From assembly GCA_023246715.1 (NCBI GenBank), contig JAHFHZ010000004.1, positions 1 to 50,471 on the forward strand: DNA of 50,471 nucleotides, given 5' to 3'. Numbering within the stretch: position 1 is the stretch's first letter; every line of letters starts with the position of its first letter. The notes beneath the pieces were generated by a model, which worked only from the letters and a program-made list of their open reading frames with translations, was not told the DNA's origin and made no database searches. A program made the position numbers and the translations under genes. Origin of the DNA: Candidatus Magasanikiibacteriota bacterium. Lineage in GTDB: Bacteria; Patescibacteriota; Patescibacteriia; Magasanikbacterales; GWA2-37-8. Positions 10,578 through 50,027 of the stretch are shown in pieces.

Positions 10578-13500
10578 ATGTCAAATTCCCTAAGAAAATC
10601 TTTTTATACAAATTTGGTGTTCGGCGTTCTAGCCAGTTTTTTTGCGGTGGTTACCAGTCTGGCGCTCAGTATGTGGTTATCGGGCTACGTCGACCGCGCG
10701 CTGGCCGCTTCACCACCGACAATCATCAATTACCAAGGGAAATTATTTCAAAATAGTTTAGCAGTCACGACCACGCAGAGCATGAAGCTGTTGTTGTACA
10801 ACGCAGCTACCGCGGGCAACGTGTTGTATACCGCCGGGGGCACCGTGGGTACCCCCACGGCCGTTTCGGTGGAAGTAACCACCGGCACCTTTAGCGTTTC
10901 GCTTGGGGGCAGCGGCACCAACGCCATTTCTGATGTTATTTTTCGGGATAATACCTCGGTTTACCTCGAAGTGACCGTTGGCGCCGAAACCATGAGCCCG
11001 CGCAAACAGATTGTTGCCTCGCCCTACGCCTTTAATTCACGGTACTTGGATGGAGTAGGCTCAAAGACAGTTTCCACCACCACCTACATTCCAATTTCCG
11101 ATGGCTACGGCAATTTCCTGTTCAACCAAGTTACCTCTACCTTCGTTACCTCCACTGGCGGAGCCTATCTAGCGGGCTCCAGCACCCTCGGCACGGCCTA
11201 CATTACCAGCCTCACCGTTGGGAACGGCCTGTTGACCTATTTAGCCAACACCCAGACGTTTACGGGCCTCAACACCTTTAGCGCCGGACTCATTGCTTCC
11301 GCATCTTCCAGTATCGCCTCCTCGCTCAACGTCAGCGGCAACCTCAACGCGTCATCCTCTTTGTTTGTCGGCGGCTTCTCCGCCCTAACTGGCTTCAACT
11401 CCACGGCTTCCTCGACCATCGGCAGCACGCTCAGCGTCACGGGCGCAACCACGGTATCCTCATCGCTTAGTGTCCTTGGCCTCACCAGCCTTACTGGCGG
11501 GTTTCTCTCCACGGCTTCCTCGACGGTGAATGCGGGGTTGAGTGTTTCGGGGGCTCTGAATGCTTCGTCAACTTTTAACGCAAACGGCTTAGCTGTTTTA
11601 ACCAGTGGATTTATCGCCAATGCCTCTTCCTCAATTGGTGGGGCCTTCCTGGTGAGCGGAAGCCTGAATTCTTCATCCACCCTCACTGCCAATAATCTCT
11701 CGATCCTTGGCACCTGTACCGGCTGTGGTGGCGCGACTAACGCAGTGAATACTTGGAGCGCTCTCAACACCTTTACCGCCGGTATTATTGCCAATGCCTC
11801 ATCAAGTATGGATCGTCTCCAGGTGGCTGGAGCCCTAAACGCCTCTGGCACCCTGTTGGTGAATGCCTCATCTTCCTTTTCCAATGGGTTAACGGTCGGC
11901 GTGGTCAGTACTACACCGAGTGCGAAATTCACTATTTATGAAGGCAGTGTTTTGGCTCTGGGCACGCAAGGTGGCGCTGGTGTCACCCCGGCTTCCGGTG
12001 CTGGTACCCGCCTGATGTGGATCCCCAACAAGTCCGCATTTCGCGCTGGCTACGTCAATGATACCCAATGGGACAATGGTAGTATTGGCAGCTACTCTAC
12101 GGCATTCGGTAACAATAACACCGCGAGTGGTGATTACTCTACGGCGGTAGGTTCTGGTAATACCGCGAGCGGCGTCTATTCGTTTGCAGGGGGGGCCGGA
12201 GGAATCGCTTCTGGTGCCGGCTCGTTTTCGGTCGGTGTAAATTCCAATGCTGCGAGTGGTGATTCTTCGGTTGCTTTTGGGAATAATAATACAGCCTCAG
12301 GAGGCTATACCTTCACCGTCGGCAGTGGCAATGTTGCGAATAACACTGGCGGTATTGCCATGGGTAATTCCAATACGGCCGGACTGCAGGCTACTGCAAT
12401 TGGTACGAGCAATGTCGCCAACGGCACGTATTCTATGGCTTTTGGCAGAGCCATGACTGTGAGCGGACACACCTCGATCGGTTTTAATTTGAATGGCGAT
12501 GCCGCTTCGACCCTGGCACAAGCCAATACCATGGCTATTATGAGTGGGAAAGTCGGTATTGGAACCGTAACTCCGGCCTATACGCTGAGTGTCAGTGGCA
12601 CTATTGGTCTCTCCGGTACCTCCACCTATTTTGCCGGTCCAACTACTACGGTTATGGATGGGCAATCTCTCACGATTGGCAAAGGTCCTGGTTTTAACCA
12701 AGGACTATTCTATGTTGATGCTGCCAGCTCAACTAATGGTGGCGCCATCTTTGCTTCGGGGAGTCTGGCAATCGCAGGCACCAGTGGTGGTATTCCACTC
12801 GAAGGAGCCGGGGCAAGATTGATGTGGGTGCCGACTAAGAGAGCCTTCCGCGTAGGAGAAGTGCTCAGCTCTGAATGGGATAATGTTAGTATCGGCAACT
12901 GGTCATTTAGTGCTGGCTACAATAATAGAGCCGTAGGTCAAGCCAGTATGGCTTTGGGGCAGAACGCCTTCGTAGAATCAAGCGCTGCCATCGGAGCTTT
13001 CTCCATTGGGTATAACAATTACACCCAGGACGGCGCGATTGGCGCGATTGGGTATAATGCTACCGCTAAGGGCACCAACTCAATGGCGCTTGGCAACTCC
13101 GTCACTGCCGGCAATGGCAACACCCCCAGTAGCTACACCTTTGGGGATGCCAATAGCGTCGGCGGACAGTACAGCGTGGCTGTAGGAACACAGAATACTG
13201 TTGACGGAGCACAATACGGTATGATTTTTGGCAACAATAGCACGGTCAGCGGACAATATTCTCTGGCGCTTGGCTGGGGTACGTATATTTCCGGGCAACA
13301 TTCTGCTGCTATCAATTTAGGAAATTCTGCAATGACCTTTTTCCAAAATCCACTGGTGTTTAATAATACCATGGCAGTAATCGGCGGTTACATGACCATT
13401 GGAAATGATGCCATAAACCCGGCGGCGCTCACTGGTGCGTCTTCTACTCTGTCTGTCTCTGGCACCTTGGCGATTGGCTCCCCCGGCAATGGCGGTGTAT

Positions 13501-14831
13501 CAGTAAGCTCTACCACCAATACCACCACTTTCAAATCTTATGCAGCCAATGCCGTCGGCGCGGTGGCGTTTGATTTTGATACTAATTTTAGTTTTACGTC
13601 GTCAACAGCCGGTGGCCCAGTGGACCGCGCCTTGGCCACCTTTAGTAACGCGGGCGTACGCAAGCTGATAATTTCGGCGGCTGGCAACGTGTACGCGTCG
13701 AGCAGTTTTATTGCCAACAGCAACTCCTTCGCGCTCGGCGACGTGGCCGAATATGTGAATCTCGCTCCAGGAGTGACGGCCGAAGCGGGCGATGTATTGG
13801 TAGTAGCCGAACAGGGTGCCGTGCAGTTCCGTCCGTCTGGTCAAGCGTACGAGCCTGCTGTTGCCGGAGTAATTTCCGATACCGGGCGGTTTGTAATGGG
13901 CGCCGGTGGCCCGGGCCGAGCCGCGCTCGCGCTGACTGGTTTAGTTTTGGTGAAAGCCAGCACCGAAAATGGCCCGATTAAAGCCGGTGATTACTTGGTT
14001 ACCGGAAGCAAACCAGGCATGGCGATGCGTTACGATATAGCGGCTGGCCGTGGGGGCGGCTTAGTGGGAATGGCGCTTGAGCCGCTGGAGGTTGGTAGCG
14101 GAAAAATTACTATCCTGGTAAACAAAGGTTTATCCGCGGCAACGCCGGCGCAAACCAACACTCTGGGATTAAGCGATACTGGTGGGCAGTTGGCTAAAGC
14201 GGCGGATTTGAACTTGGCCGGGCAGGATATTTTTAACGTAAAATCACTACGCGGTTTGAGCGGGGCTTGGGAACTGACCGCCGAAGGTAAATTAAAAGCA
14301 AAAATAGTCGAAGCCGACCAGGTTGCCGCTGCTGATTTTGTTGTGCGAGTTCCCAAAGACGCTCCGGCAGCGGTTGGGCAGGGTACTGTTGCGGTTGGTC
14401 AGCAGCTCTTGAGCATCAAGAATGAAAAAGTCACTGAACAGGCTAAAATTTTTGTCACCTTCCGTAATAATCCCCAGGCGTTTTGGTGGATTTCCAAGCA
14501 AGAAAAGGGCGCCTTTGAAATTTCGCTAAGCCAAAATGCGGCTGTCGAGAGTAAGTTCGATTATTGGATTATTGGCGTAGCGGTGGACGAAGAAACCGCC
14601 CCTGAAGCAGCTTCGGTTGAGGCACCGATCACCCCGGAACAAACTCAAAATTCAAACAGCGGTAGCAATCAGCCGCCAGCCGCTGCCACCCTACCCGATG
14701 ATACTCCTCTGGTAAGCGCGTCACCCGCCAAGGGTGAAGCGCCTGAGGCCGAGCCACCCACGCCTGATTCAGTGTCACCGGCCGCTCCCGAGCAGAACGA
14801 GGGCTCGTCGGCCCCGGCCACCGCGCCCTAG
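10578..14831 (+). CDS. Giant repeat-rich surface protein with YadA-head-like repeats
   Basis: The 1417-residue protein has a signal/anchor segment (about 12-44), a CPR-type N-terminal domain beginning INYQGKL and ending with MSPRKQIVASPYAFN near 150, then Ser/Ala/Thr-rich repeats of about 33 residues (for example ASSSIASSLNVSGNLNASSS). Two blocks of YadA-head-type repeats follow (about 510-630 and 770-920; NNNTASGDYSTAVGSGNTAS), as in trimeric adhesins. A C-terminal domain has AGVISDTG, ALTGLVLVKA and ENGPIKAGDYLVTGSKPG near 1100-1150, then a Pro/Glu/Ser-rich tail. I infer a long extracellular, possibly trimeric fibre for attachment. The start is CATG, one of few native exceptions to T before ATG. 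The next gene follows after 18 bases. Confidence 0.85.
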   Translation: MSNSLRKSFYTNLVFGVLASFFAVVTSLALSMWLSGYVDRALAASPPTIINYQGKLFQNSLAVTTTQSMKLLLYNAATAGNVLYTAGGTVGTPTAVSVEVTTGTFSVSLGGSGTNAISDVIFRDNTSVYLEVTVGAETMSPRKQIVASPYAFNSRYLDGVGSKTVSTTTYIPISDGYGNFLFNQVTSTFVTSTGGAYLAGSSTLGTAYITSLTVGNGLLTYLANTQTFTGLNTFSAGLIASASSSIASSLNVSGNLNASSSLFVGGFSALTGFNSTASSTIGSTLSVTGATTVSSSLSVLGLTSLTGGFLSTASSTVNAGLSVSGALNASSTFNANGLAVLTSGFIANASSSIGGAFLVSGSLNSSSTLTANNLSILGTCTGCGGATNAVNTWSALNTFTAGIIANASSSMDRLQVAGALNASGTLLVNASSSFSNGLTVGVVSTTPSAKFTIYEGSVLALGTQGGAGVTPASGAGTRLMWIPNKSAFRAGYVNDTQWDNGSIGSYSTAFGNNNTASGDYSTAVGSGNTASGVYSFAGGAGGIASGAGSFSVGVNSNAASGDSSVAFGNNNTASGGYTFTVGSGNVANNTGGIAMGNSNTAGLQATAIGTSNVANGTYSMAFGRAMTVSGHTSIGFNLNGDAASTLAQANTMAIMSGKVGIGTVTPAYTLSVSGTIGLSGTSTYFAGPTTTVMDGQSLTIGKGPGFNQGLFYVDAASSTNGGAIFASGSLAIAGTSGGIPLEGAGARLMWVPTKRAFRVGEVLSSEWDNVSIGNWSFSAGYNNRAVGQASMALGQNAFVESSAAIGAFSIGYNNYTQDGAIGAIGYNATAKGTNSMALGNSVTAGNGNTPSSYTFGDANSVGGQYSVAVGTQNTVDGAQYGMIFGNNSTVSGQYSLALGWGTYISGQHSAAINLGNSAMTFFQNPLVFNNTMAVIGGYMTIGNDAINPAALTGASSTLSVSGTLAIGSPGNGGVSVSSTTNTTTFKSYAANAVGAVAFDFDTNFSFTSSTAGGPVDRALATFSNAGVRKLIISAAGNVYASSSFIANSNSFALGDVAEYVNLAPGVTAEAGDVLVVAEQGAVQFRPSGQAYEPAVAGVISDTGRFVMGAGGPGRAALALTGLVLVKASTENGPIKAGDYLVTGSKPGMAMRYDIAAGRGGGLVGMALEPLEVGSGKITILVNKGLSAATPAQTNTLGLSDTGGQLAKAADLNLAGQDIFNVKSLRGLSGAWELTAEGKLKAKIVEADQVAAADFVVRVPKDAPAAVGQGTVAVGQQLLSIKNEKVTEQAKIFVTFRNNPQAFWWISKQEKGAFEISLSQNAAVESKFDYWIIGVAVDEETAPEAASVEAPITPEQTQNSNSGSNQPPAAATLPDDTPLVSASPAKGEAPEAEPPTPDSVSPAAPEQNEGSSAPATAP

Positions 14832-44002: not shown

Positions 44003-44092
44003 GTCATGCCCACCCCCACTTTTGTGAGGGTAAACTCCAGTGGGAATCCAGGTTTGGCTTACCGACTGGATTCCCGCCTGCGCGGGAATGAC
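44003..44092. repeat. REP-like inverted repeat, copy 1
   Basis: GGGAATCCAG (44042) and CTGGATTCCC (44066) form a perfect inverted pair, followed by GCCTGCGCGGGAATGAC. The CTGGATTCCCGC...GCGGGAATGAC unit is a dispersed palindromic repeat I know from many bacteria. A related copy lies at 44902-44970. Confidence 0.75.
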
Positions 44093-44147: not shown

Positions 44148-44207
44148 ACCAGGTAACTTGGACGCAAAATGACACTGGGTCATTTTGTTCCCCAAGAAGG
44201 AGGCCCC

Positions 44208-44750
44208 ATGTCCAGAACGCCTGCTCTGTATTGTGCCTTCGCCTGCCTGCTGGCTGTGCCCGCTTGCGTCGCCCCTGGCTTCGTCGGCATCGAGCGTGCT
44301 GCGGCCGCGCAGGCCCAGAGTGAGCCGCGGCTCACCAGCTACCTGCCCGGTATCGATCTGATTGGCACCCCGGCGGCTCAGCGGCCGCTGCCGATGGTCG
44401 AGGAGGTGGTGGAGACCGTGCCCGATGAGGCGATCGGCGGCATGAACCACCGCGAGCGCCTGGTGCTTCGGGGCCGTTGCGAGACCATCCTCGGCGCGGG
44501 CGGCCAGCGCTTCTTCATCGTCATCAGCCACGACGGCTCTCCCGAGGTCCGGCCACACTGGAACATCATGTGCGCCGACGGTTACGTCCGGGTCTCGTGC
44601 CCGCCGGGCCAGCAGAGCAGCCTCATGAGCCTGCCCGAAGAGCAGGCCACGCGCCGCTGCGCCAACTTCGAGAACTGGCACTTTATCTTGCCCACCGAGG
44701 GCGAGATCGATTCCGATGGCATCTTCCAGCTCGTCCACGCCTGCCGCTGA
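44208..44750 (+). CDS. GC-rich cassette lipoprotein, unknown function
   Basis: The 180-residue protein begins with a lipoprotein signal (MSRTPALYCAFACLLAVPAC, Cys20). The mature part contains RLTSYLPGIDLIGTPAAQRP, RGRCETILGAGGQRFFIVIS, WNIMCADGYVRVSCPPGQQS, RRCANFENWHFILP and HACR at the end. Five or so cysteines suggest disulfides and a small beta-rich extracytoplasmic domain. No known family recognised. AAGGAGG lies five bases before ATG. It opens the run of seven cassettes that reaches 50.0 kb. Confidence 0.75.
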   Translation: MSRTPALYCAFACLLAVPACVAPGFVGIERAAAAQAQSEPRLTSYLPGIDLIGTPAAQRPLPMVEEVVETVPDEAIGGMNHRERLVLRGRCETILGAGGQRFFIVISHDGSPEVRPHWNIMCADGYVRVSCPPGQQSSLMSLPEEQATRRCANFENWHFILPTEGEIDSDGIFQLVHACR

Positions 44751-44828
44751 GCCAGGCATGCAAACAATATCCCGCCCGGGCGCTCGTCGCTGCCACCGAG
44801 CACGAGCGCCTCCCGATCATTAATTTTA

Positions 44829-44851
44829 TCGCTGAATAAAGCGATTTTTTT
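44829..44851 (+). terminator. Terminator of the 44208 gene
   Basis: ATCGCT-GAATA-AAGCGAT followed by six or more T. Confidence 0.82.
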
Positions 44852-44901
44852 GTTTTATACGGCATTTTTACCCACATATATCCACTTGGCGCATACCTAG
44901 T

Positions 44902-44970
44902 CTGCCATCCCCGTGAAAACGGGGATCCAGTACTGTGTGTGGGCTGGATTCCCGCTGGCGCGGGAATGAC
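44902..44970. repeat. REP-like inverted repeat, copy 2
   Basis: ATCCCCGT-GAAA-ACGGGGAT followed by CCAG, a spacer, then CTGGATTCCCGCTGGCGCGG and GAATGAC. It is related to copy 1 at 44003 and lies before the next cassette promoter. Confidence 0.75.
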
Positions 44971-45035
44971 AATGTGTGATTAGGCGTGGACTACGTACAT
45001 ATATTTTTATCCCCAGTCCGAGAGCGGCCCAATCA

Positions 45036-45070
45036 TTGACAAAGCTCTATTTTTATGTAAGGGTAGAGCC
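45036..45070 (+). promoter_or_regulatory. Promoter of the 45117 cassette gene with overlapping inverted repeat
   Basis: TTGACA at 45036, then TAAGGG 16 bp later, preceded by ATG. GCTCTA (45044-45049) and TAGAGC (45065-45070) form an inverted repeat spanning the spacer and -10. It could be an operator or a leader hairpin. Confidence 0.6.
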
Positions 45071-45116
45071 AAGTCGCGTCAATGCGGCGAACCCCAACGT
45101 TAGAGGAGGTCTCCTA

Positions 45117-46202
45117 ATGCGATCCAGATCGTCTCCCCCCAGCCATCTGCTGTCCGCCGCCTTCGGGCTCCTGGCCCTGCTGGCCGCGCCCGGCCTGGCC
45201 GAGGCCAAGCAGATCTTCGTCGGGCCTTACCACGACGTGAGCAGGGCAGTCGTGGACAAGCCGCTCACGGCCAAGGAGAAGCTCGCCAAGTGCGCCAGCG
45301 ACAGCGCCTTCACTCTCGATGACTGCCAGCGGATGTTCCTTGTGCCGTCCGCAGCCACCACGAAGCAAGATGTGGATCTGCAGAAGGCCAAGACCCGAGA
45401 GGAGTCCGCCCGCGCGGCCCAGCTGAAGGCGGCCACCAAGGGCGGGGCCCAGAAGATCGAGGTGAACAACAACGCCACGTCTAACTCCGGCGGGAACAGA
45501 ATTCAGGCGACCTCGATCACCGAGGCAGTCCTGGGCCGCCGCGTCATCGCCTGGACCAACCTCCCGCGCTACGGCATGGGCCTCTTCGTTCCGGTGCGCT
45601 TCGAGCTCCGCAACGACGGGAACGACGCCCGCCAGGAGGCGATCGCAGTCGGCGTGGGCGTCGAGGCCCACGGCGGCATCTTCAGTGTGATGGAGAGGAG
45701 CGTCGTGTTCGCGTGGTATGGCGAGTTTGCCTGGCTGCGCGGCTCCCAGCTTACGGTCTCGGCGTTCGACGCCGCGACCTCCACGGTCAGCAGAATCACG
45801 GGCGGCACGAAGGCCGACCACCTCACCGTCTCCTTCGGTCTGGATCTGCTCGCCGGCAAGCTCGTCGGCGCCAAGCTGGGCTACGTCTACGACTACCGCG
45901 CCTCCTCTGTCGATGGCCCCGACGAGAACCTGCGCGGCATCCCCTCGACCGGGTCTCACGGAATGCGTGCGGCCCTGCGGATCGTTCCGTTCGGTTGGGG
46001 GCACCAGATATCCTTCGATCTATTCAACTGGAAGGAGACCTTCTACCCCACCAACCCCGACAACCCCGCCTACATCAACTACCAGGCGACCCCGGAGCAG
46101 CCCGCGATGAAGGCGACGGCCGTGCTCCCGAACGGGCCGCTCGTGACCACGAACTTTTTCAAGGTCATGATGACCTACCGACAGGACTTCAACTTCCTGT
46201 AG
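45117..46202 (+). CDS. GC-rich cassette gene: exported protein with beta-barrel-like domain
   Basis: The 361-residue protein has a cleavable signal peptide (about 1-30, LLSAAFGLLALLAAPGLAEA). A Lys/Ala-rich helical linker follows (about 70-115). The rest, about 230 residues, has alternating amphipathic strands (RYGMGLFVPVRFELRNDGND, AWLRGSQLTVSAFDA, DHLTVSFGLDLLAGKLVGAK, LGYVYDYRASSV) and a final MMTYRQDFNFL. The pattern suggests an outer-membrane-type beta-barrel. CPR bacteria are not expected to have an outer membrane, so either the fold call is wrong or the gene is of diderm origin. AGAGGAGG lies before ATG. No named family is recognised. Confidence 0.7.
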   Translation: MRSRSSPPSHLLSAAFGLLALLAAPGLAEAKQIFVGPYHDVSRAVVDKPLTAKEKLAKCASDSAFTLDDCQRMFLVPSAATTKQDVDLQKAKTREESARAAQLKAATKGGAQKIEVNNNATSNSGGNRIQATSITEAVLGRRVIAWTNLPRYGMGLFVPVRFELRNDGNDARQEAIAVGVGVEAHGGIFSVMERSVVFAWYGEFAWLRGSQLTVSAFDAATSTVSRITGGTKADHLTVSFGLDLLAGKLVGAKLGYVYDYRASSVDGPDENLRGIPSTGSHGMRAALRIVPFGWGHQISFDLFNWKETFYPTNPDNPAYINYQATPEQPAMKATAVLPNGPLVTTNFFKVMMTYRQDFNFL

Positions 46203-46325
46203 GCCCCACCCCCCGCCGTCCCCTCGACCCCCTCCGCAGCCCATGGCTCGCGAGCGGCTCCAGGCACGGCACTTCTCCCAAATGTCTAAATCAAGCCAAA
46301 CTGGTTTGGAAAGTTGGGAAAACGC

Positions 46326-46360
46326 AAAACCGCTCTCGCCCGAGGCGGTTTTTATTTTTT
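46326..46360 (+). terminator. Terminator of the 45117 gene
   Basis: ACCGC / GCGGT around TCTCGCCCGAG, flanked by A and T runs. Confidence 0.78.
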
Positions 46361-46389
46361 TAAAAACTTCCTTAGTCGTGTACAAACCC

Positions 46390-46418
46390 TTGCTTTTTTT
46401 AAATCCCTGTGGTAGGTA
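46390..46418 (+). promoter_or_regulatory. Promoter of the 46438 gene
   Basis: TTGCTT, 17 bp, TAGGTA with TGG directly before the -10. Confidence 0.6.
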
Positions 46419-46437
46419 AGTAATCAAAGGAGGCTCA

Positions 46438-47082
46438 ATGAAAAAAGATTACGATCGTCGCAAAGTTCTTGGCCTGCTTGGTAAGCTCACTGCGGCCCTT
46501 TGTCTGGCACCATTAACCGGCTGCTCTATCTTCCGTGGGGGCCAAGACGATTCATTAACCGGCGGTGGTTACCTAGACACCAAGACCGGCTGGGTGCGTC
46601 TGCCCGACGGGACTTTCACCGACGACGGTGACGTGTATCGTCAGGCGGTCAAACAGTTGAAGGAGAACCACCAGGTGCCCGCTGGCGGGCATTGCCCGAC
46701 ACCCGCCGTGCTCGGTAGCACCTCGGGAAACTTCGCCAACTTCCCCTGGGACGCGTCCTTCTGCAACGGCCTGTGCCCCGTTTGCGGGAAAGCTCCACTC
46801 ATTCAGCTCCGGAGCGAGTACTTCCCGCTCGGCGAAGATGGCGACGGACAGTCGCCGCCGATGTACAAGACCTATGGAGCATGTGCGGACCCCAGCTGTT
46901 TAAGTGGCGGCCAGGAGCAGTATCTGCCGGGCTCCAAGCGCCCCGCGCCCGCGCCGCGCACCATAAACGTGGATGGCGCGTTCGTGTACCCGCTCCCGGC
47001 CGGGGGCTGGTTCATGCCGCGGCTGCCCATGCCGGCTGGAATCCGGTTCGTCATTCCGCTCCGGCCCGTCTTCGTGCCGTAG
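46438..47082 (+). CDS. Double-cysteine-pair lipoprotein, paralogue 1
   Basis: The 214-residue protein has an N-terminal RR (MKKDYDRRKVLGLLGK) and a lipobox LTGC with Cys29, suggesting a Sec or Tat lipoprotein. Features shared with the next two genes: a Tyr/Trp-containing N-region (GYLDTKTGWVRLPDG), CPVCGKAPLIQLRSEYFPLG (about 113-132), a second cysteine pair CADPSC (139-144), KRPAPAPR, and AFVYPLPAGGWFMPRLP (181-197). The cysteine pairs may bind zinc or form disulfides. This copy is the most diverged, with a longer middle part. AAAGGAGG precedes ATG, and promoter and terminator are private. No known family. Confidence 0.75.
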   Translation: MKKDYDRRKVLGLLGKLTAALCLAPLTGCSIFRGGQDDSLTGGGYLDTKTGWVRLPDGTFTDDGDVYRQAVKQLKENHQVPAGGHCPTPAVLGSTSGNFANFPWDASFCNGLCPVCGKAPLIQLRSEYFPLGEDGDGQSPPMYKTYGACADPSCLSGGQEQYLPGSKRPAPAPRTINVDGAFVYPLPAGGWFMPRLPMPAGIRFVIPLRPVFVP

Positions 47083-47134
47083 CACCCGGTTCAGCCTTCC
47101 ACCACCAACCGCCGACCTCACCAGTCGGCCTTAG

Positions 47135-47173
47135 AACCCTGTTTTAAAAATTTTTAAAACAGGGTTTTTATTT
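47135..47173 (+). terminator. Terminator with a perfect 32-bp palindrome
   Basis: AACCCTGTTTTAAAAA is followed directly by its reverse complement, with no loop bases, then TTTATTTT. Confidence 0.82.
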
Positions 47174-47180
47174 TAACTAG

Positions 47181-47209
47181 TTGACCAAAGTAGCCGGGCG
47201 TGTTAAGAC
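47181..47209 (+). promoter_or_regulatory. Promoter of the 47261 gene
   Basis: TTGACC, 17 bp, TAAGAC with TGT directly before the -10. The leader contains CGGGGC-AATCAA-GCCCCG (47223-47240). Confidence 0.72.
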
Positions 47210-47260
47210 CGGAGCAGATTAACGGGGCAATCAAGCCCCGCATAGTAGGAAGGCCAGACC

Positions 47261-47857
47261 ATGTGCACTCGGCAGAGCGTTCTTTGTTCCCCCTTCATTC
47301 TCCTGGTCGTTTTTGCCAGCAGCTGTGTCCGCTTGTTCGGCGGCGAACAGGGAGACACGGGCGAGACTAAAATAACCGCGCCCTATGTCGAACCCAAAGC
47401 CGCCTGGGTTTGGGATGGACAGGAGTACCGTGAAGCGTCTCGCTCCGAGATCAACGATGCCATCGACAAGATGGCGCATGATCAGCACGGCCACGGCCGT
47501 ACGTTCGCCGCTCCGCTCGGGAGCGTGAGCGGCATCCCGGTTGTTGACCTGGTCTGCCCGTCGTGCGGCGAGGGGAAGCTCTCGCTCAACCTGATCTCGG
47601 AGTACTATCCCTTTGGGAGTGATCCCAAAAATGGCAATGGCCCGCCTGTTTACCGGACCTACGGAACGTGCGACAAGTGCGGCCACAGCCATTACATCAA
47701 GGGAACCGAGCGCCCGGCCCCCCCGCTCCAGAGTGAGCGCGTGGGTGGAACGATCGTCTACCCGCTACCAGCCGGGGGCTGGTTCATGCCGCGGCTGCCC
47801 GCTGGCTTTCGCCTGCCGGGTTTGCGCCCGGTTATTCCCGAGTTCGCCCTGCCCTAG
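47261..47857 (+). CDS. Double-cysteine-pair lipoprotein, paralogue 2
   Basis: The 198-residue lipoprotein (signal 1-21; ASSC with Cys22) aligns by eye with the next gene: APYVEPKAAWVWDGQEYREA (40-59), HGHGRTF, GSVSG, CPSCGEGKLSLN (99-110), YYPFGSD, CDKC (137-140), GTERPAPPLQSERVGG and VYPLPAGGWFMPRLPAG (166-182), then LRPVIPEFALP. Four cysteines in two CxxC pairs suggest a zinc ribbon or rubredoxin-like knuckles outside the membrane. AGGAAGG lies before ATG. It is monocistronic by its own promoter, and the 47892 promoter follows. Confidence 0.77.
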   Translation: MCTRQSVLCSPFILLVVFASSCVRLFGGEQGDTGETKITAPYVEPKAAWVWDGQEYREASRSEINDAIDKMAHDQHGHGRTFAAPLGSVSGIPVVDLVCPSCGEGKLSLNLISEYYPFGSDPKNGNGPPVYRTYGTCDKCGHSHYIKGTERPAPPLQSERVGGTIVYPLPAGGWFMPRLPAGFRLPGLRPVIPEFALP

Positions 47858-47891
47858 TTCTTTGGTACGTCACCAGGCGTTCCCGCTCGTA

Positions 47892-47920
47892 TTGACGCAA
47901 TTCGTCGAACGTGCTAGGAA
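47892..47920 (+). promoter_or_regulatory. Promoter of the 47980 gene
   Basis: TTGACG, 17 bp, TAGGAA with TGC directly before the -10. The leader has GGCTCC / GGAGCC (about 47938-47954). Confidence 0.72.
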
Positions 47921-47979
47921 TAGTCAGTCTCTCACAGGGCTCCTTTCGGGAGCCTTGTATCATTCCCAAGGAGATGTCC

Positions 47980-48636
47980 ATGTGTAACCGACGCAACCTG
48001 CTCCAAGCAATCGGCCTGCTGCCTTTTGCGCCCCTTGTCTCGGGGTGTCAGCAACTCTTCGGCGAGGGCGCGGCAGATCGCGGGCCCAACTCCCCGCCCG
48101 CCCCCTATGTCGACCGCAAGTTCGGCTGGGTGTGGGACGGCCAGGTCTACCGTGAAGCGTCGGCCAAAGAGATCGATGAGTTCATCGAGCAGATGACGCA
48201 AGAACAGTTCGGCCACGGCCGGCTGTTCATGGCCACCGGCAGCGTCGCTGCCGACCCGATCAAGCTGCCCGACGGCACCTGGCAGCTCCCGGGCACGCTC
48301 ACCGGCGTCCCGTGTCCCATCCCGGACTGTGACGGAACCTTGGTCGACATCAATCAGCGCCAATACTATCCCTTCGGGCGCGATAGCGACGGTGACGACG
48401 ACGGCTCGTCGGCCGTCAACGTCAGATTCGGCCAGTGCAACAGGTGCCTCTCCAGACGGGCGCTCCCCGAGCGCTTCGATGAGAAGGCCGAGCCGCTCAA
48501 GAGCCAACGCGTGAACGGCGCAGTCGTCTACCCACTGCCCGCGCCAATTGGCGGCTGGCTGTTGCCGCGTCTGCCGGCCGGTATGCGCCTGCCCACGCTC
48601 GGCCGCATTCCCATACCGCGGTTCGCCGTTCCCTAG
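47980..48636 (+). CDS. Double-cysteine-pair lipoprotein, paralogue 3
   Basis: The 218-residue protein has a Tat-like start (MCNRRNLLQAIG) and lipobox VSGC with Cys23. Shared with paralogue 2: APYVDRKFGWVWDGQVYREA (41-60), FGHGRLFMATGSV, a first cysteine pair widened to CPIPDC (112-117), YYPFGRDSDG, CNRC (153-156), KSQRVNGAVVYPLPAPIGGW and LLPRLPAGMRLP. The core is followed by the same Pro-rich end (IPIPRFAVP). AAGGAG lies before ATG. The YPLPAGGW motif has a two-residue insert (API). Function unknown; probably a surface component or partner of its paralogues. Confidence 0.77.
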   Translation: MCNRRNLLQAIGLLPFAPLVSGCQQLFGEGAADRGPNSPPAPYVDRKFGWVWDGQVYREASAKEIDEFIEQMTQEQFGHGRLFMATGSVAADPIKLPDGTWQLPGTLTGVPCPIPDCDGTLVDINQRQYYPFGRDSDGDDDGSSAVNVRFGQCNRCLSRRALPERFDEKAEPLKSQRVNGAVVYPLPAPIGGWLLPRLPAGMRLPTLGRIPIPRFAVP

Positions 48637-48659
48637 GCTACCGCGCAGCTCCGCCGCCT

Positions 48660-48675
48660 GCTGACCTGTCAGCAC
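48660..48675 (+). terminator. Short hairpin after paralogue 3
   Basis: TGCTGAC-CT-GTCAGCA without a T run; it may be a weak terminator or a processing site. Confidence 0.35.
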
Positions 48676-48681
48676 CTCGGC

Positions 48682-48728
48682 CCCTTTCCCGAATTGCTCA
48701 ACAAAATTATGAGCAAATCGGGAAAGGG
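48682..48728 (+). promoter_or_regulatory. 18-bp leader hairpin of the 48760 gene
   Basis: CCCTTTCCCGA (48682-48692) pairs with TCGGGAAAGGG (48718-48728), and TTGCTCA with TGAGCAA, with one A-A mismatch and a 9-base loop. No T run follows. No separate promoter is visible in front, so the gene may be transcribed with paralogue 3. Confidence 0.7.
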
Positions 48729-48759
48729 CAACGAAATCAACGCCCTGTGAGGAGGTCCC

Positions 48760-49500
48760 ATGCGCGTCCGTTCCTTGCCTCTCAACCTCGTGCTGCTCGC
48801 CCTTGCGGTCGGCACGCTGCCCGGTTGCAGCTTCATCGACAGACTCGGCCGCGAGATGACCGCCCGCGGCAATCAGGTGAGCCAGCTCTACCAGAAATGC
48901 CAAGAAAAAGTGGAGGGCGCCTGCGATGCCTGGATCCAGTGTTCACAAAGCGGCGTTGACGACTGCCGCAAGCTCGCCTCGGTTCAGCCGATCCTTGGCA
49001 GTCCGCCCGCGGTGAGCGGCCTTTTGCGCTTCGGCAGGGGAGGCGGCGCGGCGGGTGGCAACAACGGCGACGAGTGTGATCCGCCCGGCGAACGCGAGTG
49101 CTCGGCCAGCCCCGACGGCCGCCACCACTTCGTGGGGAAGATCCCCCCCACGTATCGGTTCTTCGTGAAGAAGGACAACACCTGCTGGCGTCAAGCGCTC
49201 GAGGACTGCGAGTACTGCCACACCACCTACATCGGCAACGCTAGCGAGGAGCAGATCACCTTCCCGCAGATCACCTCTGCGGTGGGGCAGGCTGCGGCTG
49301 CCAAGGAAGCCCTCGCCAAAGCGGCCGGAGGGATGCCTGCGCAGGCGCTCCTTGAGCTCCTCGCCGCCGGTAACAAGGCCGGTTTCGAGGCCAAGATCGC
49401 CGAGAGCTACTGGAGCCACATTTTTGAGGCTCAAGACAACGCCGAGACCTCGGCTGACCGCCACGGCCTCACGCCTTGCGTCAAGCACGTCAGCGACTAG
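48760..49500 (+). CDS. GC-rich cassette lipoprotein, cysteine-rich
   Basis: The 246-residue lipoprotein (lipobox LPGC, Cys23) has about ten more cysteines: YQKCQEK, EGACDAWIQCSQSG, DDCRKLA, GDECDPPGERECSASPDGRH, NTCWRQALEDCEYCHTTYIG and TPCVKH. A Gly-rich linker (FGRGGGAAGGNNGD, about 92-105) separates an N-terminal and a C-terminal part; the latter has an Ala-rich helix near 180-205. ALEDCEYCHTTY contains C-x2-C-H, which resembles a c-type heme site (CxxCH), but a single motif is not proof. GAGGAGG lies before ATG. Unrecognised. Confidence 0.74.
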   Translation: MRVRSLPLNLVLLALAVGTLPGCSFIDRLGREMTARGNQVSQLYQKCQEKVEGACDAWIQCSQSGVDDCRKLASVQPILGSPPAVSGLLRFGRGGGAAGGNNGDECDPPGERECSASPDGRHHFVGKIPPTYRFFVKKDNTCWRQALEDCEYCHTTYIGNASEEQITFPQITSAVGQAAAAKEALAKAAGGMPAQALLELLAAGNKAGFEAKIAESYWSHIFEAQDNAETSADRHGLTPCVKHVSD

Positions 49501-49516
49501 GCCATCTCAGTCAATC

Positions 49517-49545
49517 TTGACAAATTGCTCATAGACCCCTACAAC
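49517..49545 (+). promoter_or_regulatory. Promoter of the 49668 gene
   Basis: TTGACA, 17 bp, TACAAC. Confidence 0.75.
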
Positions 49546-49605
49546 GAGGAGCTTTGTCCGACCTGCGGGCCAGGCTCCCTCGCCATATGCCCTTTACAAC
49601 ACCAT

Positions 49606-49662
49606 CCCAAAGTAATCCAAGCGCTGAAAATCTTCAGCTCTAAGACAACTTTGGGAAGGAGG
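49606..49662 (+). promoter_or_regulatory. Nested leader hairpin directly before a Shine-Dalgarno
   Basis: CCCAAAGT (49606-49613) pairs with ACTTTGGG (49648-49655), enclosing GCTGAA-AATC-TTCAGC (49623-49638). AAGGAGG starts on the very next base. The placement suggests control of ribosome access or protection of the 5' end. Confidence 0.65.
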
Positions 49663-49667
49663 CCACC

Positions 49668-50027
49668 ATGCGTATCGCTGCCAAGCGCACCTTGATTGGT
49701 GTTGCGATCATTCTGGGCCTTGTCGCTTGCGCCTGGGCCGCTCTGAAGAAGCCTGCCGCTGCGCTCCCCACCGAGGTGCGCTGGAGTGATGTGACCCTGC
49801 CACCCTCCACCACCACCTGCGCCAAATACAGGCTGTGGGAGGTTCCGCCCGTGGACCAGGCCGAGCAAGCCGCTGACCCGCGCACGGCCGAGAACCGCTT
49901 CTTTCAGCGCGGTTGCGATGCCCGCCGCGTCACAGATGCTCGAGGCCATCGGGTGTTTCGGCTGCCGGGCGACCCGCTCATCTGCTGCACCAAGAATCCG
50001 GCCCTGGCTGCCGGCCCCAACCCCTAA
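49668..50027 (+). CDS. GC-rich cassette gene: small lipoprotein, unknown
   Basis: The 119 residues begin MRIAAKRTLIGVAIILGLVA with Cys21 as a possible lipidation site, although Ala-Trp after it is unusual. The mature part has TTTCAKYRLWEVPP, FQRGCDARRV and PLICCTKNPA, so about five cysteines in all. No family is recognised. AAGGAGG lies six bases before ATG. It has a private promoter, leader hairpin and strong terminator, and ends the cassette run. Confidence 0.68.
   Translation: MRIAAKRTLIGVAIILGLVACAWAALKKPAAALPTEVRWSDVTLPPSTTTCAKYRLWEVPPVDQAEQAADPRTAENRFFQRGCDARRVTDARGHRVFRLPGDPLICCTKNPALAAGPNP

Follow-up and report, generated by a model that had tools for sequence, protein, structure and literature searches.

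Three consecutive genes of a Candidatus Magasanikbacteria genome, from an ultra-small and presumably host-dependent bacterium, are diverged tandem paralogues (37-48% identity) that encode predicted lipoproteins. The three, here called A, B and C, are members of a genome-wide class of 66 GC-rich genes that look foreign. The reading that we prefer, with a probability of about 0.42, is that the triad is a family of Sec-exported surface lipoproteins, expressed from separate cassettes, which forms part of an acquired GC-rich class and has a role in host contact. Hosts and contact proteins are known for only a minority of Patescibacteria. A class that can be read from sequence by its marks (GC3, Shine-Dalgarno site, promoter) and that is enriched in lipoproteins allows candidates for contact proteins to be listed and, should the donors of the class be traced, the host to be named.

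The predicted lipoprotein triad

The window, i.e., the whole stretch of 50,471 nucleotides analysed, makes up contig 37 of an assembly that measures 1.06 Mb and is 92.8% complete. It carries the triad as follows:

46438..47082, + strand: predicted lipoprotein gene A, 214 aa, lipobox LTGC, RR in the n-region; GC3 0.73, GC-rich class
47261..47857, + strand: predicted lipoprotein gene B, 198 aa, lipobox ASSC, no RR; GC3 0.74, GC-rich class
47980..48636, + strand: predicted lipoprotein gene C, 218 aa from ATG 47980, lipobox VSGC, RR in the n-region

The GC3 of gene C is 0.80, computed over a longer ORF that starts at GTG 47911 and overlaps the promoter-like site and leader of the gene. Since AAGGAG lies 6 nt upstream of ATG 47980 and the alignment of the three proteins starts at that ATG, it is the most likely start. 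A preliminary description of this DNA had presented the three as related consecutive genes; the frames were found where it had placed them, and paralogy was confirmed by matches of B to C (45% identity, E=4e-39) and of B to A (49% identity over B residues 45-191, E=2e-23). Pairwise dN/dS was about 0.42-0.46 and dS 1.1-1.5, with codon position 3 taking most of the differences; therefore, A, B and C are real proteins under moderate purifying selection. The copies are old relative to one another.

In the alignment of the three copies, the lipobox cysteine and four core cysteines were invariant, and G-x-D and VYPLPA..GGW..PRLP were also kept. The spacing within the core cysteine pairs varies: most are CxxC, whereas Cx4C occurs in C at the first pair and in A at the second. 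The following positions were taken from the alignment and, for the pairs of B, also from a structure model:

46774..46785, + strand: first Cys pair of A, CPVC
46882..46899, + strand: second Cys pair of A, CADPSC
46984..47010, + strand: VYPLPAGGW motif of A
47555..47566, + strand: first Cys pair of B, CPSC
47669..47680, + strand: second Cys pair of B, CDKC
47756..47782, + strand: VYPLPAGGW motif of B
48313..48330, + strand: first Cys pair of C, CPIPDC
48436..48447, + strand: second Cys pair of C, CNRC
48526..48558, + strand: motif of C, VYPLPAPIGGW

The shared motifs were located where they had been described. In A, the N-terminal (WDGQ-type) motif has changed, and YFPLGED stands in place of YYPFG-x-D. 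The RPAPPL segment reads RPAPAP in A and is degenerate in C. As far as three sequences can tell, this pattern is consistent with selection on the cysteine pairs and the C-terminal motif.

All three lipoboxes end in cysteine, ASSC of B being the less typical. Since both Lgt (PF01790 at C24:5496-6209) and signal peptidase II LspA (PF01252 at C4:20483-20875) are encoded in the genome, Sec-dependent lipoproteins fit, and the earlier designation of the products as lipoproteins gains support; they are probably anchored at the cell surface. An RR motif, previously noted in two of the three, was found in A (DRRKVL) and C (NRRNLL) and is absent from B (TRQSVL). Its interpretation as a Tat signal was not supported: TatC (PF00902) was not found in 25 family genomes, including the triad's own (92.8% complete), whereas the same search found it in 11 of 14 control genomes. 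Since no TatC was found, we rejected Tat export for the triad. The RR motifs are no evidence of it and, in this host at least, are most plausibly the usual basic n-regions of lipoprotein signals.

Relatives and fold of the family

Searches of Pfam, NCBIfam, PHROGs, PADLOC and PDB gave no significant match to the triad, and its core matched no known domain family in Pfam, NCBIfam or PDB at significance. Rubredoxin, zf-ChsH2 and Zn_ribbon_3 gave sub-threshold matches to its CxxCG knuckles; these were below curated cut-offs or insignificant and covered 7-29 residues only. Copy B had no relative among 72,556 plasmids and 50,697 phage records, and the triad had none in viral contigs or in a scan of 84,980 species genomes with two peptide patterns. 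Profile searches, which had been proposed as a check and covered 25 Patescibacteria genomes from the family, 86 from the order, 381 from the class and 380 from the phylum, yielded no relative outside this genome, with the triad absent from all 24 other family genomes; nor was one seen in the asnS surroundings of 20 family members or at the other asnS loci fetched. The two best weak matches, when inspected, proved to be PheS (G403), in which the YYPF..CSFC stretch is a chance likeness, and a deaminase-like protein (G762); the remaining weak matches had E values of 0.01-0.07. All null searches are bounded by the collections searched. Within these, the earlier view that the family is new gains support, and the searches make it, so far, an orphan of one genome.

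The two cysteine pairs lie 20-40 residues apart in all three copies, which is the spacing of a C4 zinc ribbon. A full-length AlphaFold model was poor (pLDDT 45.6) and its Foldseek matches unusable, whereas a model trimmed to B residues 80-178 reached a pLDDT of 65.9, with 51 of 99 residues at 70-90, and had strands flanking the cysteine pairs. Its highest Foldseek probabilities were for ZPR1 (0.51) and NrdR (0.35), both zinc ribbons, neither of them significant. The preliminary description had envisaged a zinc-knuckle or disulfide fold and had called for structure prediction; the placement of the strands and the ranking of zinc ribbons in this low-confidence model weakly favor a zinc-ribbon-like fold, while no significant profile or Foldseek match to a C4 zinc ribbon was obtained for the triad. 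In C4 zinc ribbons of the ZPR1, NrdR and ribosomal L37Ae type, as in the trimmed model of the triad, strands connect two Cys knuckles that sit at beta turns. However, those are cytosolic and the triad domain is on a predicted lipoprotein, its knuckle spacing varies among copies, and it matches none of them significantly in sequence or fold.

Putative expression cassettes and the GC-rich class

Each triad gene is preceded by a promoter-like site and a Shine-Dalgarno-like site:

46390..46418, + strand: promoter-like site of A, TTGCTT-17-TAGGTA, TG at the extended -10
46426..46433, + strand: Shine-Dalgarno of A, AAAGGAGG
47133..47168, + strand: terminator after A, 16-pair stem with T tail
47181..47209, + strand: promoter-like site of B, TTGACC-17-TAAGAC, extended -10
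47223..47240, + strand: leader hairpin of B, CGGGGC-AATCAA-GCCCCG, weak (z -1.2)
47247..47253, + strand: weak Shine-Dalgarno of B, AGGAAGG
47892..47920, + strand: promoter-like site of C, TTGACG-17-TAGGAA, extended -10
47938..47954, + strand: leader hairpin of C, GGCTCC-TTTCG-GGAGCC (z -2.2)
47968..47973, + strand: Shine-Dalgarno of C, AAGGAG

All three promoter-like sites follow TTGnnn-N17-TA, and in each the -10 is preceded by TGn. They escape a stock sigma-70 scan, which requires a T in position 6 of the -10. The leader hairpins of B and C are small and modest. The earlier statement that each gene has its own promoter therefore stands as far as a promoter-like site and a Shine-Dalgarno-like site per gene, which were called by sequence pattern only.

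The triad is part of an island (44169-50027) of seven consecutive GC-rich genes, flanked by core genes (ribosomal, secY, adk, map, asnS); the adjoining AsnS is 74-81% identical to AsnS of Candidatus Magasanikbacteria genomes. The other four island genes are:

44169..44750, + strand: GC-rich orphan, predicted exported; likely start 44208, Shine-Dalgarno AAGGAGG
45117..46202, + strand: GC-rich secreted orphan, ending in FNFL, a C-terminus that reads as beta-barrel-like
48760..49500, + strand: GC-rich orphan, predicted lipoprotein; lipobox LPGC by eye, signal/TM only by a simple rule
49668..50027, + strand: GC-rich orphan, predicted lipoprotein or anchored protein by class GC and signal rule

A 19-bp inverted repeat (48682-48728, 95% complementary, leader z -5.3, without T tail) lies upstream of the 48760 lipoprotein gene, and a strong leader hairpin (49602-49659, z -4.4), whose 3' arm reaches into the Shine-Dalgarno of the 49668 gene, is a possible translational switch. 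Two ATTCCCGC-N4-GCGGGAAT palindromes that resemble the dRS3-like repeat (44066-44092 and 44944-44970) closely precede the first two genes of the island. We rejected the idea that the island has the boundaries of a mobile element: the class genes have no flanking direct or inverted repeats in common, and the ATTCCCGC...GCGGGAAT repeats occur genome-wide (about 45 loose matches), mostly far from the class. Elsewhere in the window, a 1417-aa predicted surface protein with SAFGNNNTASGDYSTAVGSGN-type repeats (10578-14831) adjoins a TPR-containing multi-pass membrane protein.

GC profiling with a home-made gene caller on the whole assembly separated the 66 GC-rich genes (GC3 about 0.81), to which the triad belongs, from 882 core genes (GC3 about 0.52). 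Most class genes stand as single insertions. Seven lie together in each of two runs, of which the first is the triad island; the second (C44:3892-9865, L049) includes a large coiled-coil membrane protein, and several of its small calls may be spurious. Class statistics were computed on genes of at least 80 aa (62 class and 853 core genes), with signal peptides and lipoboxes called genome-wide by a simple rule. A Shine-Dalgarno site preceded 38 of the 62 class genes (61%) and 25 of the 853 core genes (2.9%; Fisher p=4e-34), compared with 9.7% and 2.1%, respectively, in a control window. Core genes are thus essentially without Shine-Dalgarno sites, and the asnS regions of relatives look no different in this respect. 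A mutated anti-Shine-Dalgarno was ruled out: the 16S on C11 keeps an intact CCTCC at its 3' end, so the sites are usable. The class was also enriched in lipoboxes (15/62 versus 19/853, p=4e-10), strict TTGAC-N15-TGnTA promoters (17/51 versus 17/339) and leader hairpins (31% versus 16%), while a Pfam family was assigned to about a dozen of 59 class genes (count from the family table) versus 10 of 10 random core genes. By BLAST, the only paralogues within the class were the triad and one weak match, and the triad is its only clear paralogous family in this genome. At the beginning of contigs C17 and C29 (L021:100, L035:100), two other GC-rich genes have a like leader (same ACTCACTAGTCGTGAGT hairpin) and an MSFVIQS start before they diverge, a repeated 5' end on different genes. 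In the literature searched, we found no account of a GC-rich, Shine-Dalgarno-led gene class.

Similar genes were present in a relative with 38.6% GC (400 kb sampled), at GC3 0.65-0.94 versus a median of 0.31, with a weaker Shine-Dalgarno link (3 of 14 GC-rich genes), and GC-rich genes occurred in 6 of 20 asnS regions of family members. The relative G006 carries a GC-rich gene with recognisable function (L115:12756-13691), an apparent PRPP synthetase whose GC3 is 0.80 although the region around it has 42% GC. In the relative G022, two adjoining GC-rich lipoprotein genes (L211:15031-16662) share IDAPPPPLSLLSFGLEPTSN... behind different signal peptides, another tandem duplication within the class. 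In style, this pair resembles lipoproteins of Myxococcota; the GC-rich genes of the relative are reminiscent of GCNQVFGLDE / DAPPDAP-type lipoproteins of that phylum, which is a conceivable donor.

Discussion

According to our preferred reading, A, B and C would be exported by Sec, processed by Lgt and LspA and held on the surface of the Candidatus Magasanikbacteria cell. In each protein, a short linker and a WVWDGQ-type hairpin with a helix would be followed by a zinc-ribbon-like domain with four Cys and by a tail, rich in proline, that bears VYPLPA..GGW; each gene would be a separate expression cassette with its own promoter-like and ribosome-binding sites. The class genes would have come from outside and been inserted, moron-like, singly or in small runs between core operons, and the triad would act where an epibiotic cell touches its host, binding through the C-terminal segment. 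Surface location, metal binding, acquisition and host contact are what we infer, the last from lifestyle and predicted location, with the epibiotic lifestyle assumed from the phylum. Horizontal gene transfer to Patescibacteria has been documented (PMC12455944) and natural competence demonstrated in Saccharibacteria (PMC10633639); since the genome encodes ComEC, a route for gene acquisition is available. Considering that dS exceeds 1 while GC3 is still 0.73-0.80, duplication may have taken place either before or after arrival. A more far-reaching proposal, which we regard as doubtful, is that a lineage with a core without Shine-Dalgarno sites keeps a second, genome-wide class of GC-rich, Shine-Dalgarno-led, lipoprotein-enriched and mostly orphan genes drawn largely from its own host; this class would then be a record of the host of Magasanikbacteria, the triad being host-derived and expanded after arrival.

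The class could instead be endogenous: the organism itself would keep special, fast-evolving genes for exported products, in which strong promoters, Shine-Dalgarno sites and GC-rich codons serve separate or high-level expression, and the triad would be a product of local duplication. Class promoters resemble those of some core genes, which share the style TTGACAAAA..TGCTATACT, and this, like the usable Shine-Dalgarno sites provided by the intact 16S CCTCC and the excess of leader hairpins, is in keeping with such an origin. However, class GC3 hardly differs between a genome of 49% GC and one of 38.6% GC, which fits an outside origin better, and most class genes are without a relative in the genome; we consider an endogenous class unlikely. 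Envelope housekeeping by small metal-binding lipoproteins, chaperoning or buffering the metal or redox state outside the membrane, would suit four conserved cysteines in two pairs on a predicted exported protein, but it appears rather improbable, since absence of the triad from 24 of 24 other family genomes speaks against a shared housekeeping need. The occurrence of the triad in only one of the genomes searched would suit transient acquired genes without lasting use that are drifting to loss, but this is quite improbable: dN/dS of 0.42-0.46 over dS >1, three intact frames and invariant motifs oppose this, although the selection may predate arrival. Very improbable, in our view, is moron-like protection, in which lipoproteins from integrated phages would block phage adsorption or DNA entry (superinfection exclusion). 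The cassette layout, deviant GC and lipid anchor are as in lipoprotein morons, but no PHROGs, PADLOC, phage-genome or viral-contig match was found, and no prophage genes were noticed among the window neighbours of the triad, which are ribosomal, secY, adk, map and asnS.

Prophage morons are autonomous expression cassettes with their own promoter and ribosome site and deviant base composition, and some encode lipoproteins. The triad, as far as sequence patterns go, resembles them in autonomous layout, deviant composition, insertion between core genes and predicted lipoprotein products. Unlike morons, it is not in a recognisable prophage and has no phage homologue, and its class consists of dozens of genes spread over the chromosome. 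Lineage-specific paralogous lipoprotein families of host-associated bacteria are likewise tandem, diverged, exported and without a known domain; the triad differs from these in comprising three copies, in one genome, within a GC-rich, Shine-Dalgarno-led class.
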